DNA of 9,144 nucleotides, from NCBI GenBank assembly GCA_009776565.1, contig WRNQ01000028.1, positions 4,782 to 13,925 on the forward strand, given 5' to 3'. Positions 633 through 9,144 of this stretch are shown here, one piece after another (the stretch's first letter is position 1; each line of letters opens with the position of its first letter). The notes beneath the pieces are model-generated. The model saw only the letters and a program-made list of their open reading frames with translations, did not search any database and was not told where the DNA came from. Source of the DNA: Synergistaceae bacterium. Its GTDB lineage: Bacteria > Synergistota > Synergistia > Synergistales > Aminobacteriaceae. A program made the position numbers and the translations under genes.

Positions 633-2906
633 TTGCGTATAAAATGCTTTTTCATGTGTTTTCTTTTTTTACTTTGTAATATTTCAAATTCCTGGGCTTC
701 CGTTCATGATTACGATGTGGTTGTAGCGGGCGGCGGAACTGGAGGAATTATGGCGGCTATACAGGCGGCGCGGGACGGCGCCCGTGTTGCCGTATTTGAA
801 CCTTCGTCCTGGATCGGCGGACAAATGACAGCCGCAGGCGTATCAACTATGGATGATTTGAGCAGACAGAAAAGCGGGCTTTACCTTGACTTTATTTCGC
901 GAGTGAATAAATATTATGAAGATATGGGTAAGTCTACGGGTACTTGTTATTGGGATTCGCGTTCGGTTGCTTTTGAACCAAGTGTTGGGGAGAAAATACT
1001 TTATGAGATGATAAACGAAGTTCGCGCTCCCATAAAGAGGACGGGAAAACGCGTGGGAGAAAAAGAAAGCGGACGCGTACTTGATGTATTTCTGAACTCT
1101 TCGGTAGTCGAAGTGTTTCGCAAAGACAAAAAAATAACGGGCGTTAAATCTATTGTAAGAAAAAAATCGGGCATGAGGAAATTTTATGATCAACAGGAAA
1201 TGCAAGTTTCGTGCAAGGTACTTATAGACGCGACTGAGTACGGCGATGTGATACCGCTTGCTATGCTGCCTTATCGCGCGGGTAATTCATACTCTCCATT
1301 TATAAAGCTTGACGAATCAAAAATTCAGGATATAACCTGGACAGCGGTCATAAAATATTATCCCGGAGGAGCACCAAGAGATTTGATAGCTTACACCCCG
1401 TTATGGGGTTATGAAGAGGCAAAGCATAATTTTGAAAGTTACGTAACAGTCGATGGTAACGACTTTAAAGGAGTATTCCCGGTTGAAATGCCCGTTAACT
1501 TCGTAAGCCATAACGCATACCGCGCAATCCCTGATTCTTCAAGATACTACAGCTATGACGGCAATAGGCATAACTGGTCTTATATATCAAAAACCGGGGT
1601 AAACTGGGGTAACGATTATCCCGGGAAGCCGGGATGGAACAGCGGGAGAGCCGGACTGCCGGTGAGGTATCTGGAAGATTTGGATTTTCGTAAAAAAATG
1701 AATAAAGAAGCGTTTTTCAAAACACTCCACTTTATTTATTACATGCAGAACGAACTTGGCGATGCCGGCAGATATTGGTCAATAGCGGATGATGAATACT
1801 ATAACGAGGACATTCCCCCCGAAATCTTAAATGAGATTCCCATGGATTGGCTTGAGATAGCTAAGAGGATGCCCGTTATCCCATATGTGAGAGAGTCAAG
1901 GAGAATAATCGGGGAGCGCACTCTCACATCATCTGAGCTTTTAAAGAATTCTCTCAGCTACCGCGACGGAGAGACAGGCTTTGAGTTTCCGAACGCTGTA
2001 GCTATAGGAGGATATACGCTTGACCTTCATCATGCTTCGGAGGACGGAGATCTTGAATGGGAGTTCGGAGAAACTAACAGTTCCATAGCCTCCAACAGAC
2101 CGCGGGGAGCTTTTCAAATTCCGCTTAATATTATGATCCCAAAGGGTGTCGACGGATTTCTTGCGATTGAAAAAAACATGTCGATGTCCAGGCTTGCTGC
2201 CGGAGCTATACGACTTCAGCCAATAAGCATGATGACCGGACAGGCTGCGGGCGCACTGGCGGCGCTTGCGACCAGCCTACAAATGGAACTTCGTGAAATA
2301 CCGGCGATAAAAGTTCAAACAAGGCTTGTAAATAATGGAGTTTTCATTTCATTATGTAAATACTCTGATGTTACGCCCGAAAATCCTTTTTTCGGAGCTG
2401 TTCAGATTTCAAACCTTTATGGCTTATTTCAGCCTCTGGACTATCCACACGCGCCTTCATACAACATCTCAGACCTTGACGACCCAAAGTTAGCTATGGC
2501 AATACTCAGAGGCGCCGATAAAGGGATATTTGGAATTGAAGAGATGATTTCCAACAAAGATGCTGAGGACTCCGTTAAGAGAGCTTTAAAGGCTTTATCT
2601 CTTGAATATAATGGAATAAAGCCAATCAAAAATCCCGGAAGGCTATCGTCAAGAGCTGATTTTGTAAGTTATCTGACTGAAAGCTTCAGATTGAAAGATT
2701 TGGAAGAAAAGTCAAACGTACAGTTTTACTCTGACGTTCCGCCTGAACACAGGGCATTTGATGCGGTCAGTATACTACAAAAAATTGGAGTTCTTGATTC
2801 TGCGAAAGGGGCGAAATTTCATCCCGCAAGACCCATAACCCGTGGCGAGGCGGTAGAACTGCTTGTCAAAGTTATGGATTTTGCTTCGTTGAAAAAAGGA
2901 AAATAG
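633..2906 (+). CDS. Secreted FAD-dependent oxidoreductase with SLH-like C-terminal repeats
   Basis: This 757-residue protein begins with a Sec signal peptide (MRIK, hydrophobic core about 5-15, likely cleavage after SWA at residue 22), so it should act outside the cytoplasm. A Rossmann FAD-binding fold follows: DYDVVVAGGGTGG with G33-x-G35-x-x-G38, and E56 at the end of strand 2 for the ribose. Family landmarks are V419-RESRRIIGE and, at 496-546, IPLNIMIPKGVDG leading into MMTGQAAGALAALA. They match the FAD_oxidored type (PF12831-like) of flavoproteins. The C-terminus carries degenerate S-layer-homology-like units: YSDVTPENP (from 577), the stretch at 611-634, and FYSDVPPEHRAFDAVSILQKIG through ITRGEAVELL (698-751). 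The start is TTG at 633, preceded by AGAGGTGG at 621-628. The only later Met inside the signal peptide (residue 8) would remove its basic n-region. The electron acceptor and substrate cannot be read from the sequence. It is first in an operon with the molybdoenzyme 4 bp downstream. Confidence 0.85.
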   Translation: MRIKCFFMCFLFLLCNISNSWASVHDYDVVVAGGGTGGIMAAIQAARDGARVAVFEPSSWIGGQMTAAGVSTMDDLSRQKSGLYLDFISRVNKYYEDMGKSTGTCYWDSRSVAFEPSVGEKILYEMINEVRAPIKRTGKRVGEKESGRVLDVFLNSSVVEVFRKDKKITGVKSIVRKKSGMRKFYDQQEMQVSCKVLIDATEYGDVIPLAMLPYRAGNSYSPFIKLDESKIQDITWTAVIKYYPGGAPRDLIAYTPLWGYEEAKHNFESYVTVDGNDFKGVFPVEMPVNFVSHNAYRAIPDSSRYYSYDGNRHNWSYISKTGVNWGNDYPGKPGWNSGRAGLPVRYLEDLDFRKKMNKEAFFKTLHFIYYMQNELGDAGRYWSIADDEYYNEDIPPEILNEIPMDWLEIAKRMPVIPYVRESRRIIGERTLTSSELLKNSLSYRDGETGFEFPNAVAIGGYTLDLHHASEDGDLEWEFGETNSSIASNRPRGAFQIPLNIMIPKGVDGFLAIEKNMSMSRLAAGAIRLQPISMMTGQAAGALAALATSLQMELREIPAIKVQTRLVNNGVFISLCKYSDVTPENPFFGAVQISNLYGLFQPLDYPHAPSYNISDLDDPKLAMAILRGADKGIFGIEEMISNKDAEDSVKRALKALSLEYNGIKPIKNPGRLSSRADFVSYLTESFRLKDLEEKSNVQFYSDVPPEHRAFDAVSILQKIGVLDSAKGAKFHPARPITRGEAVELLVKVMDFASLKKGK

Positions 2907-2910
2907 CGCC

Positions 2911-4848
2911 ATGAATGAAGGATGGAAAATTACCGCTTGCCCGCATGACTGTCCAGGCGGCTGCACGATGAAAGCCCGCTTTATTGACGGTAAAATAGAA
3001 ATCGAACCGGAACGTTCAAACCCATACACAAAATTTATATGCGCAAATGGATTGCGTTGGAGGCAAAGAGCTCTCTCTGCAAATCGCCTGAAGACTCCTG
3101 TTTTACGTACAGCCGCCGGTTGGAAAGAAATATGTTGGGAGGAAGCTTGGAGTATTTGGGCGCAAAAAATAGAGGAGAGCATATCAAAATATGGCCCCAC
3201 ATCGTTGATGTTTTACAAAGGCGCAGGTTCCTTGTATTTCTCAAAGTTGCTGATGAAGCTGATTTTTCATGAGTTGGGAGGCTATACCGGAATGAAAGGC
3301 TCCCTTTGTGGAAGTATCGGAATTGAAGGACTAAATACCTGTACCGGTAAAAATAAAGGTTTGACGGAATTATCGCCTTTTGTGCCTGTTGAACATTTTA
3401 AGAGGGCAAAAGCAGTAATGCTCTGGGGCAAGAATATATATGAAACGCATCCTCAGTTAATTCCTGTTCTAAACGATATGAGGAATAATGGGACAAAAAT
3501 AGCTGCGGTAGAAATAAGAGAATCACCCACTGTCAAACACGCTGATAAATACATTAAAATAGCTCCCGGAAGTGACTGGGCATTAACCGCATGGTTATGC
3601 CGCGCGCTTGTTGAGCGCAATCTCACTGCTCCAAACTGGCGAAAGCGGGTAGTGAATTCCGCCGATTTTGAAAAATTTATTCTTGCGCTTGACAGCGATA
3701 ATCTGATTGCCATATCGGGATTAAAACGTTTTCAAGCGGAAGATTTACTGACGTGGCTAATTTCAAATAAGCCGGTATGTCACCTTCCTTCACATGGATC
3801 TCAGCGATATTTACATGGCAACCTGCAATTCATGTGGATATTTGCCCTGGTTGTTTTGAGCGGCGCTTTTGACGACCCTGCGGCGGCGCTGTCATTTGGG
3901 AAGGAAGAACATTTACTTTTTCCCGAAAGCCGGATATTTAATAACGTAAAATCTCCGGAAGTGAGAGAATTGCCCGTCGGATGCTGGAGCAATTTCATTG
4001 GAAGGATTACGCCTCCAATAGAAGTGCTCATGATAGCCAATGCCAATCCTCTGCGTCAGTCTCCAGATATTGCGGGTACAAAATCCGCTATGTCAAAAAT
4101 TCCTTTTAAGGTTTGCAGCGACCTTTTTATGACGGATACTGCAAAAATCTGTGATCTGGTGCTGCCGGCGTCTTCTTTTCTGGAAGACGAGGATTGGATT
4201 GCCTCTTATTGGCACAGTTACCTGGTAAGAAGCGAGAAAGTGATACCGCGCTATGCGGATTCAAAGTCAGATGTGGAGATATACGCAGGACTTTCGGACG
4301 CCCTAAAGCTTAATATTGATTTAATTGGGGCGAAACGTCGGATGGACAAGTCGTTGCTGGAGGATAAAAGACTTCGTTGTGTCAGCGACCGGGTTTATTT
4401 ATGCAATGAACAAAGTTACTGGCTTTCTGATTCAATAGCGGAACTTCCTGTGTCCATACCTGAAAATGATACAAAAGAAACTCAAAGTGAAGTCCGGCTT
4501 ATTACGGTGCATTGCAGGAAATATATAAACGGGCAGAGCGATGAACCGCATGTCAAAACAACTACCCGGGATGATTTTGGTTTTTTGGGTGAAGATGATA
4601 TAATTCCTGAAATTTATCTTAACCCGGATAAAATGAGAAAATTAAATATAAAATTGGGGCGGAAGATAAGAGTTGTATCATCAAATAAAAACGTTGTCCA
4701 TATGAAAGTGAAGGAAGATTCTTCCATTTCAGAAGAATATGCTATTGCTTATCAGGGAGGAGAGAGTATTAATTTGCTTACAAATGCGTATGAAGCTCCC
4801 GGAGGGGGCGCCCCATACGCAGAGTGCTTTGTACGGATTGATTCTTAA
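2911..4848 (+). CDS. Molybdopterin-dependent oxidoreductase with N-terminal [4Fe-4S] site
   Basis: This 645-residue member of the DMSO-reductase/formate-dehydrogenase superfamily (Mo or W bis-MGD) opens with the [4Fe-4S] motif C10-x3-C14-x3-C18-x25-C44. The pterin-binding region follows. GSLCGSIG places Cys133 where the metal-ligating Cys/Sec/Ser normally sits. Later landmarks are NANPLRQSPD (about 375-385) and TDTAKICDLVLPASSFLEDED (about 407-427), typical of pterin dinucleotide binding. A C-terminal dinucleotide-binding barrel (about 520-640) ends in NAYEAPGGGAPYAEC. The 4Fe-4S motif starts at residue 10 and there is no twin-arginine signal, so the enzyme looks cytoplasmic, unlike its exported partner. 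The ATG lies 4 bp after the upstream stop, with AAGGA at 2896-2900 inside the upstream gene. Length is at the short end for the superfamily, but all domains appear present. The substrate is not identifiable; no dedicated electron-transfer subunit follows. Confidence 0.88.
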   Translation: MNEGWKITACPHDCPGGCTMKARFIDGKIEIEPERSNPYTKFICANGLRWRQRALSANRLKTPVLRTAAGWKEICWEEAWSIWAQKIEESISKYGPTSLMFYKGAGSLYFSKLLMKLIFHELGGYTGMKGSLCGSIGIEGLNTCTGKNKGLTELSPFVPVEHFKRAKAVMLWGKNIYETHPQLIPVLNDMRNNGTKIAAVEIRESPTVKHADKYIKIAPGSDWALTAWLCRALVERNLTAPNWRKRVVNSADFEKFILALDSDNLIAISGLKRFQAEDLLTWLISNKPVCHLPSHGSQRYLHGNLQFMWIFALVVLSGAFDDPAAALSFGKEEHLLFPESRIFNNVKSPEVRELPVGCWSNFIGRITPPIEVLMIANANPLRQSPDIAGTKSAMSKIPFKVCSDLFMTDTAKICDLVLPASSFLEDEDWIASYWHSYLVRSEKVIPRYADSKSDVEIYAGLSDALKLNIDLIGAKRRMDKSLLEDKRLRCVSDRVYLCNEQSYWLSDSIAELPVSIPENDTKETQSEVRLITVHCRKYINGQSDEPHVKTTTRDDFGFLGEDDIIPEIYLNPDKMRKLNIKLGRKIRVVSSNKNVVHMKVKEDSSISEEYAIAYQGGESINLLTNAYEAPGGGAPYAECFVRIDS

Positions 4849-4931: not shown

Positions 4932-6524
4932 TTGAAAATATTTTATAGGCTCTTGTTGCCGGCTATTATAGTTATTCTTATGGCATCCGATGCTAATGCG
5001 GCTCAATCGGTTAATGTCGAACAATATCTTAATCTGGTACGCATTCAAAATCATTCGTTGCTTGCTGCTGCTAAGAACGTTGAAGCGGCTTATTATCAAG
5101 TACTGGCTTCAGTGGGCTATCAGCGGCTTCGTGCTGGCATAAATGTTAATGCTAACTACAACACAGTGCAACAATCAGCGGGAGGTAATACATATAACCC
5201 TGTCGGATACTCAATTACGCCAAGTATATCTCAGACGATAGACATAAGCGGAGTTTTTAAACTGAGCGAAAGGCAGTCGATATTAGGATATGAGTCTACA
5301 AGAGTAGCGTTTGATAACTCTATCAACAATATTCTTGCTTCGGCGGAAGACGCTTATTGGGGTGTCGTTATGGCGCGCGATAATGTTAATTTGCAGAGGG
5401 ATATTTTGCGTCAGAGACAGGAAAACCTTCGTGTAACTGAAGAAAAGTATAATCAACAGCTTGTTCCAAAGCTTGATGTGATAAGAGCTACATCTTCGGT
5501 TTCCGACGCTCAAAACTCAATAGTAAACGCAGAAGGAACTTTGCTCAACCGGCTTGCGGTTTTAAGAAATTATGCCGGAGGAGTATTTATTGAGCCAAGT
5601 GTAACAAATTTCTATGTCCCCGAGCTTTCTATCAGCGTTAACGATGCTGTAGCCATAGAGAACCACCCAAGCGTTAGGCAAAGAAGGATTTTACTGGCGC
5701 AATCCGAAGTACAAAAGCAAATAGCGCAAAAAGGTATGGCGCCGACATTGGGAGCTTCCGCAAATTGGAATTTGTTGTATGGAACTTCCGCCGGCAGCAG
5801 TATGGAAAGAGGAGATAATGTTTCTGTGGGATTATCTTTGAATATTCCTATATCTGACGGAAATCAAACAAAATATGAAACTTTCAGCAGGTCGGCTGCA
5901 ACGCTGGCGGCAATGGAAGATTTAATAGAATCGGAAGCTTCAGTCATACTAAATCTCACTGTTGCGCTTAATGACTGGTATATGGCGAAATCTCTTGAAG
6001 AAAACATGAAGCAGCAAGTTGAACGCTCGAATGAGGAGCTCAAAATAACCGAGCTCATGTATAACGAGGGAATGGGAAGCCAATTGGATCTTATAACTGC
6101 TCAAACTGATAACCAGGCCGTAAGGACTAATTACATCAATGCCGTAATGGGAATGTATTCCGCTATAGTAAGTCTGCGTCAAGCTATGGGAGATTATGCT
6201 CCGGCCGTTGAGGGGACATGGAAGGACGCGCTTGTAAAATATGGAGTAAAAAAAGGTGAAAAAAGCGTCGATAAAAACAATGATAATGTTGAAATACTTC
6301 CTCAAAATGAGGAAATATTTATAAATGTACGAGGAATTGACATCCCGCTCTCTTCTGCCATTGAATGGCTTAGGGGCGGAGCGGAACCTTCAGAACTGCA
6401 AGGATCAAGTTCGATCAATATGCCACTCAGTAAGAAAAATCCTGACGGAACCTATGAAGCCGTCAAATTTAATGGAGGAAAGGAAATTTCGTTAGAAGAA
6501 GCTCTTGACTGGCTGGATAAGTAA
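4932..6524 (+). CDS. TolC-family outer membrane channel protein with C-terminal extension
   Basis: This 530-residue exported protein has a Sec signal peptide (MKIFYRLLLPAIIVILMASD, cleavage near ANA at 21-23). It shows the duplicated outer-membrane-efflux-protein architecture. The first helical hairpin (about 135-215) includes RQENLRVTEEKYNQQLVPKLDVIRA. The second (about 335-430) includes ERSNEELKITELMYNEGMGSQLDLITAQ. TolC trimers form the outer-membrane duct of efflux pumps and type I secretion. The start is TTG at 4932, with AAGGAGTG at 4916-4923. From about residue 432 the protein runs roughly 100 residues beyond the usual OEP core. This tail holds a charged linker, a motif of about 42 residues (460-501) shared with the transglycosylase downstream, and a short terminal copy (517-530, ISLEEALDWLDK). 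No membrane-fusion protein or transporter is adjacent, so the exported substrate is unknown. Confidence 0.87.
   Translation: MKIFYRLLLPAIIVILMASDANAAQSVNVEQYLNLVRIQNHSLLAAAKNVEAAYYQVLASVGYQRLRAGINVNANYNTVQQSAGGNTYNPVGYSITPSISQTIDISGVFKLSERQSILGYESTRVAFDNSINNILASAEDAYWGVVMARDNVNLQRDILRQRQENLRVTEEKYNQQLVPKLDVIRATSSVSDAQNSIVNAEGTLLNRLAVLRNYAGGVFIEPSVTNFYVPELSISVNDAVAIENHPSVRQRRILLAQSEVQKQIAQKGMAPTLGASANWNLLYGTSAGSSMERGDNVSVGLSLNIPISDGNQTKYETFSRSAATLAAMEDLIESEASVILNLTVALNDWYMAKSLEENMKQQVERSNEELKITELMYNEGMGSQLDLITAQTDNQAVRTNYINAVMGMYSAIVSLRQAMGDYAPAVEGTWKDALVKYGVKKGEKSVDKNNDNVEILPQNEEIFINVRGIDIPLSSAIEWLRGGAEPSELQGSSSINMPLSKKNPDGTYEAVKFNGGKEISLEEALDWLDK
6309..6434 (+). repeat. Shared envelope motif, copy 1 (TolC-like protein, residues 460-501)
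   Basis: This segment encodes EEIFINVRGIDIPLSSAIEW followed by LRGGAEPSELQGSSSINMPLSKK. It aligns with residues 29-71 of the downstream transglycosylase (EDISISSSNKDVPLDLALEW, then LRGETELPKELDEIPITVPL). Shared features are E-x-I-x-I, D-[IV]-P-L, A-[IL]-E-W-L-R-G, E-L and [MV]-P-L-x-K. The similarity is at protein level; codons differ, so it is not a recent DNA duplication. I do not recognise the motif as a named domain. Confidence 0.7.
6480..6521 (+). repeat. Shared envelope motif, short copy 2 at the TolC-like C-terminus (residues 517-530)
   Basis: The last 14 codons encode KEISLEEALDWLDK. This repeats the core of copy 1 (DIPLSSAIEWLR) and of the transglycosylase copy (KDVPLDLALEWLR) in the pattern [DE]-[IV]-x-L-x-x-A-[IL]-[ED]-W-L. 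It sits at the very end of the protein. It is short enough that convergence on an amphipathic helix is possible. Confidence 0.5.
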
Positions 6525-6807
6525 TACAGCCAAAAGTATTAACTATTTAAAGCATAAATAAGTTTTATTACAGTTTGTTATTACTAAATTCTTTCTTTAT
6601 CCCGCGTGAATGATATTCATCGAAGGAATATAGTGAGCATGTATGTTTTTTTGTGCTTTTTTAAAAAATGCAAACTGCAAAAGCATGTGTCACGCAATAA
6701 CTTTTAGCGCAAGTAGAAGGACGCGCCTACTAATATGAAATGTTTTTGAGTTTTGCATTGGTTAATACTTTCAAATAATGAAACAAATTGAAAGTTGGTG
6801 TAACCAA
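6525..6807. other. AT-rich intergenic region between the tolC-like and transglycosylase genes
   Basis: These 283 bases carry no convincing gene. A short inverted repeat (TGAAT, 3-base loop, ATTCA, about 6607-6619) and oligo-T/oligo-A tracts near 6645-6668 are visible, but no GC stem followed by a T-run, so a terminator after the tolC-like gene is not evident. TTGCAT at 6753-6758 with AATAAT at 6774-6779 (15-base spacer) is a weak promoter candidate. It would place transcription start between the two possible ATG codons of the transglycosylase. Confidence 0.35.
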
Positions 6808-7500
6808 ATGATTAAAAAAATTATTACTTTTATTGCAATGTTTATAGTATTTATAGCGCCGTGTTCGCCGGTTTACTCCTCCGGTTTGCCGGAGGATATC
6901 AGTATAAGTTCATCGAACAAAGATGTACCCCTTGATTTAGCCCTTGAGTGGCTGAGAGGAGAAACGGAACTTCCGAAAGAGCTTGATGAAATCCCGATAA
7001 CAGTTCCGTTAATGAAGCCTGATGAGAAAATCTTCAGTGAAAACTACCAGGTAAACGCAATTTCTCATGTGTTTTTACAGCATAATAAACAACTTGATAA
7101 CGTGACTGCAAATGAATATGCCAATATTATAAGGAACACAAGCGAGAAATTTGGAGAAGATCCGTTCATTATTGCGGCGCTCGTTGTTGTTGAATCAAGT
7201 GTACAGAATGATGCTCTTTCAAAAGGCGGAGACTTTGGTCTCATGCAGGTAAGATGGAAAGTTCATAAGAACAAATTAATTAAGAAATATCCTACGATAA
7301 AAACTGAAATAGACATGTTTAAGCCTAAAGAAAATATAACAGCAGGCACGGAAATATTCTCTAATTATAGAAAATCCGCCGATGGAGATATTAAAAAGGC
7401 TATGGTAGCATATTCCGGGGGGAGTTCAACCCACTGGACGAAAGTAAATAACGTGGTATCTCAGATTAAGGCTAAATATAACGAGTTTTCAAATGGGTAA
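6808..7500 (+). CDS. Secreted lytic transglycosylase (SLT/lysozyme-like fold)
   Basis: From the ATG at 6808 the protein has 230 residues. It starts with a classic signal peptide (MIKKIITFIAMFIVFIAPCS, cleavage near VYS at about residue 24). The mature N-terminus carries the motif shared with the TolC-like protein (residues 29-71). The SLT domain follows: the FIIAALVVVESS stretch contains the catalytic Glu129, then GGDFGLMQV (G144-V148), and a late AYSGG matching the family's AYNxG motif. Such enzymes cleave the MurNAc-GlcNAc bond of peptidoglycan with 1,6-anhydro product, often to make room for envelope machines. An ATG at 6778 would add ten residues before the signal peptide. I prefer 6808 because the signal peptide is then canonical and GGTG (6797-6800) lies 7 bases upstream, though that ribosome site is weak. 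It follows the tolC-like gene by 283 bases on the same strand. Confidence 0.85.
   Translation: MIKKIITFIAMFIVFIAPCSPVYSSGLPEDISISSSNKDVPLDLALEWLRGETELPKELDEIPITVPLMKPDEKIFSENYQVNAISHVFLQHNKQLDNVTANEYANIIRNTSEKFGEDPFIIAALVVVESSVQNDALSKGGDFGLMQVRWKVHKNKLIKKYPTIKTEIDMFKPKENITAGTEIFSNYRKSADGDIKKAMVAYSGGSSTHWTKVNNVVSQIKAKYNEFSNG
6892..7020 (+). repeat. Shared envelope motif, copy in the transglycosylase (residues 29-71)
   Basis: Encodes EDISISSSNKDVPLDLALEW, then LRGETELPKELDEIPITVPL and MKP, immediately after the signal peptide and before the SLT domain. It is the counterpart of the TolC-like C-terminal motif at 6309-6434. In one protein it lies at the N-terminus of the mature chain and in the other near the C-terminus, so it behaves like a portable module rather than part of either catalytic or channel fold. 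Confidence 0.7.
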
Positions 7501-8565: not shown

Positions 8566-9144
8566 TTACTTTTTCCTTGTCGCTATTAACGGAATAAACG
8601 CAAATATAACTATCAACGGATATATAGCGTTGCATCCTTCAACATCATCGTCATCATCACCGCCGCCGCCAAATATTGATTTTCTGCCTCTGAATTCAAC
8701 TATTAGGAGCTGGTCGGCGCTATCATTTGAGCTGTTATTAACCAGATAAATCTCGGCTGTTCCGTATACAACATGTATTGTATTGAAGCGAGCTATAACT
8801 TTTTCTCCGTCAAATTCCAAGGAATAGCTTGCACCCGGTGTAACGGGGGTGACGTATGCTATTTTATAACCGTTAAGCATACTATTTGACAAAATAATTC
8901 CCTGATCCACGAACGGTTCTGACCAAACAAGCTTCTTACTTTCAATTTTTGCTCCTTCGGGAGCTTTTCCTCCAATAAGAACAACTTCAGGCGCTACGGG
9001 CTCAAAATCTTCCTCAGCTCTATAGCCTTTGAATTCAACTACCAGGATTTGATCGATACCGGCTGAACCTTCCTCGACCAGATATATCCTGGCTGTTCCG
9101 TCTGTCAGAGCCAGTCTGGTAAAGCGCGCTATTATTTCGTCTCC
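8566..9144 (-). CDS. Repeat-containing surface protein with Synergist-CTERM-like sorting tail (3' part)
   Basis: The frame is open from the window edge (9144) to the stop at 8568-8566, giving the last 192 residues; the N-terminus lies outside. An internal repeat is visible. Residues 1-40 (GDEIIARF, then GTARIYLV, DQILVVEFKG) match 113-155 (GEKVIARF, GTAEIYLV, DQLLIVEFRG), a period of about 112 residues. A flexible linker GGGGDDDDDVE follows, then GCNAIYPLIVIFAFIPLIATRKK. This Cys-Asn-Ala, hydrophobic segment and basic end resemble the Synergist-CTERM protein-sorting signal of Synergistetes, thought to anchor proteins at the surface after processing. The repeat function is unknown; the beta-rich, low-Cys sequence suggests an adhesin-like or structural extracellular domain. 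The valine GTG at 8910 inside the frame is not the true start, because the repeat continues upstream. Confidence 0.75.
   Translation of the reverse strand, partial: GDEIIARFTRLALTDGTARIYLVEEGSAGIDQILVVEFKGYRAEEDFEPVAPEVVLIGGKAPEGAKIESKKLVWSEPFVDQGIILSNSMLNGYKIAYVTPVTPGASYSLEFDGEKVIARFNTIHVVYGTAEIYLVNNSSNDSADQLLIVEFRGRKSIFGGGGDDDDDVEGCNAIYPLIVIFAFIPLIATRKK
8569..8637 (-). other. Synergist-CTERM-like C-terminal sorting signal
   Basis: The last 23 codons encode GCNAIYPLIVIFAFIPLIAT followed by RKK, right after a Gly4-Asp5 linker. The three-part layout (short conserved motif, membrane-spanning stretch, basic cluster at the end) is that of C-terminal sorting signals. The GCNA start is the form I associate with Synergist-CTERM. 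It is the main clue to the phylum. Confidence 0.7.

Follow-up and report, generated by a model that had tools for sequence, protein, structure and literature searches.

The stretch of DNA analyzed here (9,144 nucleotides, positions 4,782 to 13,925 of contig WRNQ01000028.1 of a Synergistaceae bacterium; hereafter the window) encodes, side by side on one strand, a TolC-family outer-membrane channel and an apparently exported lytic transglycosylase (TG), and the two proteins share a segment of about 40 residues. The 530-residue channel has the TolC fold and matches the OEP family of Pfam (PF02321, E=3.9e-41). The TG matches the SLT family (PF01464, E=1.9e-18), contains the catalytic Glu and the GLMQ motif, and by its domain and catalytic motifs is an SLT family 1 lytic transglycosylase, while its export is a judgement from the N-terminal sequence. 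The open reading frame tool places the start of the TG at 6778 (240 residues), and most close homologs use a MIKK-like methionine that corresponds to 6808 (230 residues).

As judged from sequence comparisons, the segments in the TolC tail and at the N-terminus of the TG are homologous. Both follow the pattern D-[IV]-P-L-x-x-A-x-E-W-L-[RK]-G ... [IV]-x-[VM]-P-L, and in copy 1 of the TolC strands are followed by a helix around IDIPLSSAIEWLRGG and by a final INMPL. A single BLASTP comparison aligns TolC residues 460-505 with TG residues 39-82 (in the 240-residue numbering) at 47% identity (E=2e-6), and 300 shuffles of the TG N-terminus yielded no equal score (z 10.7). Among 55 tolC-TG pairs scored in this manner (L055 was omitted, as its TolC frame is broken), the window and the loci L001 and L002 of two related genomes were positive, the latter two with z of 8.3 and 9.6 by shuffling; the remaining 52 pairs gave no comparable segment score, the next best z being 3.5. 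In profile searches across the two families (Z = 20,000), a profile built only from TG copies retrieves 9 of the 13 TolC tails at E<=1, including 3 at E<=0.01 (the best at 4e-4), and one built only from TolC copies retrieves 17 of the 19 TGs at E<=1, including 9 at E<=0.01. The TG-only profile was built without P0010, P0012, P0015 and P0019, and all four still matched it. When profiles are compared with hhalign, the TG copy matches TolC copy 1 with a probability of 97.2% and a second, partial TolC copy with 95.2%, and the two TolC copies match one another with 94.5%; in all three cases none of 100 column shuffles scores as high. TolC copy 2 is short (16-18 aligned columns), its single-sequence matches are weak (E 0.06 in genome G001), and its profile was made without P0039, the sequence of which has no copy 2. 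The initial annotation, which had noticed the common motif from the sequence alone and placed both copies correctly along the two chains, is thus confirmed, and the match it proposed to examine with profiles exceeds chance in either direction. The features of the region are listed in Table 1.

Table 1. Features of the tolC-TG region of the window (residues of the TG in the 230-residue numbering)
Feature	Position	Strand	Basis
Outer-membrane channel of the TolC family (530 aa); residues 441-530 form a 90-residue C-terminal extension	4932..6524	+	Pfam OEP
TolC linker from core to shared segment, residues 441-459, variable	6252..6308	+	mean pairwise identity 0.22; pLDDT 32-33
Shared segment, TolC copy 1, residues 460-502	6309..6437	+	BLASTP, profiles, hhalign 97.2%
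TolC partial copy 2, extreme C-terminus, residues 515-530	6474..6521	+	hhalign
Intergenic stretch, tolC to homolog-supported TG start	6525..6807	+	scan for promoter- and terminator-like matches
Apparently exported SLT-family lytic transglycosylase (TG), 230 aa	6808..7500	+	Pfam SLT; starts of homologs
Shared segment, TG copy, residues 29-71, directly after apparent signal peptide	6892..7020	+	BLASTP, profiles, hhalign, identity
SLT catalytic domain, residues 84-230; invariant E129-S130, GLMQ 144-147, AYSGG 201-205	7057..7497	+	

The segment has a narrow distribution. It is present in the 19 best-scoring (P0001-P0019) of 30 TGs, with two copies in P0012, and was not found by profile searches in the other 11; furthermore, none of 91 additional TGs (P0123-P0213, from the best 120 of 213 matches) matched any of the three segment profiles at E<=10. 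The TolC tail is carried by 13 of 92 TolCs, the near relative P0042 ending before the position of the tail. In each tree the carriers form one clade with support of 1.0 (13 of 84 TolCs and 19 of 121 TGs; calculated from alignment columns with an occupancy of 80% or more, with P0042 dropped from the alignments and the tree, and P0116 from the tree). At the level of genomes, 2 of 185 Synergistota carry the segment, namely G001 and G002, the drafts (2.1 and 1.4 Mb) that contain L001 and L002, and they carry it only in the tolC-TG gene pair, with all five matches at E<=1 falling in the TolC tail or the TG. Nine other genomes gave weak matches (E 0.0135-0.0491), compared to about 9 expected by chance at the cut-off, and a longer TolC-tail profile recovered the same two genomes together with eight weakly matching ones (E 0.008-0.047). 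No third protein with the segment was found in G001, in G002 or in the scan of the 185 genomes, the search for a third family having been confined to the phylum. The hosts of the carrier genomes, as given in PMC7024585, are the termites Neocapritermes taracua (Nt197) and Labiotermes labralis (Lab288). Seven pairs of carrier TolCs and TGs could be assigned to contigs of equal size (13925, 83303, 54877, 6286, 5745, 4001 and 2696), and both copies are present in all of them; this linkage is indirect, save for the window and L001, where it is seen directly. L002 is a further directly seen linked pair with both copies. The segment is therefore a clade-specific addition, in termite-gut Synergistaceae, to a gene pair of the family level. 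An envelope system specific to Synergistota as a whole, as had been suggested, does not agree with this distribution, and no extension of the motif to the C-termini of other TolCs or to other exported enzymes was seen in the genomes searched.

The gene pair itself is far more widespread. A TolC gene lies just upstream of the TG, on the same strand, in 55 of 55 Synergistota TG loci (which were located via the TG). Measured from stop to stop, the TG frame starts at most 261 bases before the TolC frame ends and at most 427 bases beyond that point. An adjacent tolC is the gene linkage expected of a specialized secretion-system transglycosylase of the EtgA/VirB1 type. Thirteen other TG loci, mostly from Clostridia, have no TolC gene just upstream. 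In the phylum scan, 82 of 98 listed TolC matches (E<=1e-60) were compared with 65 of the TG places; 61 of the 82 have an adjacent TG (59 genomes) and 21 do not. The TG adjoins 58 of the 60 TolC matches of at least 592 bits, and the two strong exceptions (G021 and G144) proved on reading to be loci without an adjacent TG; the other non-adjacent matches comprise a TolC broken over two contigs (G044) and matches of 404-523 bits. Wherever a TG place is listed, the lower-scoring TolCs are unlinked, except for three linked fragments or partial frames (G034, G044 and G055). A recheck of 28 lower-scoring rows, among them most of the 16 matches not covered by the comparison, against the TG places listed for their genomes gave no adjacent case, the nearest TG lying 4.6 kb away; no TG place is listed for six rows (G105, G147, G151, G154, G158 and G160). 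Much of the family Synergistaceae accordingly has a TG encoded behind tolC, whether or not the segment is present. Since the pair is widespread but the segment is restricted to one clade, the segment appears to be a later addition to an already existing gene pair.

At loci that lack the segment, the TolC tails are mostly short and often lysine-rich, and the N-termini of the TGs are different. A number of these TGs (L003, L016, L017; P0123, P0125, P0143, P0156) share an N-terminal ERYDFP of their own, followed in several cases by PVKL-x-FP, for which no counterpart was seen in the corresponding TolC tails. Some TolC matches are located in much longer open frames of 686-1266 amino acids (L003:3327-6959; G070, G071, G151 and G160), which could be either extensions or mere open frames. 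A family of proteins of about 370 amino acids recurs in 33 of 56 loci and starts 7-8 bases past the TG frame in L013:10457-11575, L015:10677-11789 and L022:6137-7240; two members that were scanned have no Pfam match above the cut-off, and the family could represent a third component of this operon.

Both copies of the segment are more conserved than the linkers next to them. In the TG, the helix core of the segment exhibits a mean pairwise identity of 0.76, compared to 0.75 in the catalytic domain, 0.23 in the next 11 residues and 0.46 in the preceding residues 26-38. In the TolC, the corresponding values are 0.46 and 0.53 for the two copies, 0.22 for the preceding linker and 0.75 for the core. 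The ratio of nonsynonymous to synonymous substitution rates (dN/dS) between the window and L001 is about 0.17 in the TG segment and 0.07 in the SLT domain, and 0.21, 0.10 and 0.45 in the TolC tail, core and linker, respectively. Between the window and L002 the value for the TG segment is again 0.17, and dS is near saturation in the TolC comparison. Every TolC of the clade that is long enough to include this point has copy 1 (13 proteins; P0042 ends earlier), and all 19 TGs have the TG copy.

We propose, tentatively and with slightly less than even confidence, that the segment is a lineage-specific docking element that holds a dedicated TG at the TolC channel. The TG copy directly follows the apparent signal peptide (in P0016 it is situated, by inspection, almost at the mature start), and therefore both copies are expected to reside on free ends that should be in the periplasm. 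In TolC structures determined so far, the equatorial, periplasmic region is where the chain emerges from the barrel and the helices. According to PMC13082787, the equatorial domain has been proposed to interact with peptidoglycan. In the scenario we envisage, the segment would have arisen on the free ends of both proteins, the C-terminus of the TolC and the mature N-terminus of the TG, in the ancestor of the termite-gut Synergistaceae clade. An enzyme already encoded beside tolC in much of the family could then be held at the periplasmic waist of the TolC trimer, whether the two copies bind one another or each binds the same periplasmic partner. The tethered TG would then open the peptidoglycan where the channel crosses the wall. 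Direct pairing of the copies is attractive, because duplication of a self-associating peptide would provide the pairing at once. It is conceivable, although we consider it less likely than not, that the clade possesses a TolC and a dedicated TG clipped together by a duplicated peptide that binds itself or a shared periplasmic receptor; if so, it would represent a TolC machine that brings its own cell-wall opener. The docking or targeting module postulated in the initial annotation thus survives in part: a real segment, confined in the genomes searched to one pair of linked genes and placed on free ends, fits docking, and its phylum-wide extent is not supported.

Several observations weigh against docking. 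The modeled TG copy consists of a short helix (residues 42-49) of modest confidence (block pLDDT, the model's local confidence score, of about 75) within a low-confidence N-terminus, and the TolC tail is predicted to form a mini-domain of low to medium confidence, with block pLDDT of 68-80 for residues 461-490 and 52 for residues 491-500, preceded by values of 32-33 for residues 441-460; copy 2 is modeled as a helix (521-529). Structure prediction, envisaged earlier as a check, therefore yields a short helix in one protein and a modest mini-domain in the other, and not one clear shared fold. The matches to a structure library obtained with VIA-align are confined to the core of the TolC (26-425) and, for the TG, to its SLT domain (81-228), and have no bearing on the fold of the segment. 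The TolC tail also evolves rapidly: between the window and L001 its dN is 0.31, compared to 0.09 in the core, and between the window and L002 it is 0.47 (67 codons), equal to that of the linker (0.46, 12 codons). Because the tail is as fast as the linker in the latter comparison, we regard constraint, as estimated from the alignments, as well supported for the TG copy and moderately supported for the TolC copy. Copy 1 is degenerate in P0040, copy 2 is missing from P0039, and the most divergent tailed TolCs (P0043 and P0044) could not be paired with any TG. Moreover, about 57 of the 59 genomes that have the tolC-TG pair do without the segment. Finally, tolC and the TG are separated in the window by 283 bp (counted to the start at 6808), which leaves their co-transcription uncertain; the interval 6480-6860 contains one promoter-like match, with 1.7 expected in shuffled sequence, and no terminator-like match was found in it.

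Alternatively, the copies could be recognition tags for one third factor, such as a periplasmic chaperone, a protease, a lipoprotein or a sorting machine, that acts on each protein independently without bringing the two together. We consider this unlikely, although the position of the copies on free termini and their short helix are what one would expect of a peptide recognized in trans, and the presence of a copy and a partial copy in the TolC, as well as of two copies in P0012, is a multiplicity often seen in tags. However, a general tag should mark more proteins, and none was found in G001 or G002; nor is there a candidate gene for the partner, with long flanks available for the window and L001 among the motif-bearing loci. 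About the same share of probability goes to neutral duplication within the operon, in which the 5' end of the TG gene was copied to the 3' end of tolC, or vice versa, and the segment has since been tolerated although it has no specific function. The adjacency of the genes, the confinement of the segment to both of them, the single clade of carriers in each tree and the fast divergence of the TolC tail, at the rate of the linker in one comparison, are all readily accommodated by such an event. On the other hand, the copies have been retained (in 13 TolCs and in 19 of 19 TGs) while the linkers have fallen to an identity of 0.22-0.23, and the dN/dS of the TG copy is well under 1.

It is very improbable that the segment represents part of a known domain, for which bS16, a UBA-like domain, the tail of a site-2 protease and a mini-domain similar to STN/secretin N0 come into consideration. 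The predicted order of strands and helix in the TolC tail recalls small alpha/beta domains, its profile matches bS16 in the PDB (E=0.0038), and UBA_7 matches 4 of 10 tails with a best E of 0.0017. However, none of the 14 sequences in the 38-residue alignment has a match to a Pfam family, and bS16 and UBA_7 fail individually. The PDB match to bS16 drops to E=0.56 once the TG copies join the profile, and in Pfam this family aligns with 2 of 10 tails over 16 and 28 of 62 positions, with scores of 14.0 and 11.9 bits (cut-off 27). UBA_7 covers 9-14 of 48 positions in its four tails, at 12.6-18.7 bits against the cut-off of 27, and, like Toprim_C_rpt, Flu_M1, DUF3140, DUF3892, NIL and similar weak single-tail matches, remains below threshold. 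The match to the Aquifex aeolicus site-2 protease (E=0.052, 16 residues) was judged to be due to chance. STN/secretin N0, suggested by the strand-helix order of the tail as modeled within the channel, has no support from sequence here, and STN was not among the 11 Pfam families listed for the 10 tails. A chance likeness of two amphipathic helices, for which one could invoke the short core and the occurrence of WL-x-x-G-x-P turns in unrelated proteins, can be practically dismissed given the reciprocal profile matches, z of 8-11 in three pairs with nothing comparable in 52, and 0 of 100 shuffles, even if the three positive pairs (the window, L001 and L002) come from related genomes and are not independent trials.

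If the segment does dock the TG to the channel, the arrangement would have partial analogs among characterized systems. Specialized transglycosylases, such as EtgA, which acts with the type III inner rod protein EscI (PDB 8urn), are thought to help their machine through the cell wall. The feature in common is an SLT-family enzyme of small size whose gene accompanies those of a trans-envelope machine; here the machine is a TolC-type channel, the same segment occurs in both proteins, and their contact is hypothetical. With MltF, MltC and Slt of SLT family 1 the TG shares the catalytic fold and signature residues of the ES, GLMQ and AY-x-G types; however, the listed matches align from model residue 69-106 on, and none covers segment residues 29-68. 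In Escherichia coli, TolC has an accessory periplasmic partner, YbjP (PMC13082787; PDB 9v52, 9tg4), but YbjP is a lipoprotein, whereas the candidate partner here is an SLT enzyme that is apparently exported and would make contact through a duplicated terminal segment. The word "transglycosylase" is absent from the main text of that paper. Among the publications listed for TolC with transglycosylases or with Synergistota, no title or beginning of an abstract described the pair or the segment, in a coverage that leaves out most subscription journals. To our knowledge, it is poorly understood how TolC-type channels pass the peptidoglycan and whether they recruit cell-wall enzymes of their own. 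A conserved tolC-TG pair, with one clade that bears the same unannotated segment on both free ends, offers a concrete and testable case for the passage of TolC through the wall.

As for the other genes of the neighborhood, the proteins encoded at 8566-9144 on the minus strand of the window and at L001:11312-13852 terminate in GCNA, a hydrophobic stretch and basic residues of the RKK or RKK-like type, an ending that resembles a C-terminal sorting signal of Synergistota; an NCBIfam scan for a sorting-signal family matched none in either the minus-strand open reading frame or the L001 protein. Upstream of tolC, an FAD-dependent oxidoreductase is encoded in both the window (633-2906) and L001 (5553-8012). 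In the window it is separated from tolC by a gene for a molybdopterin oxidoreductase, and its C-terminus exhibits a match to the S-layer homology domain slightly below the cut-off (E 8e-4, 19.7 compared to 20.8 bits).

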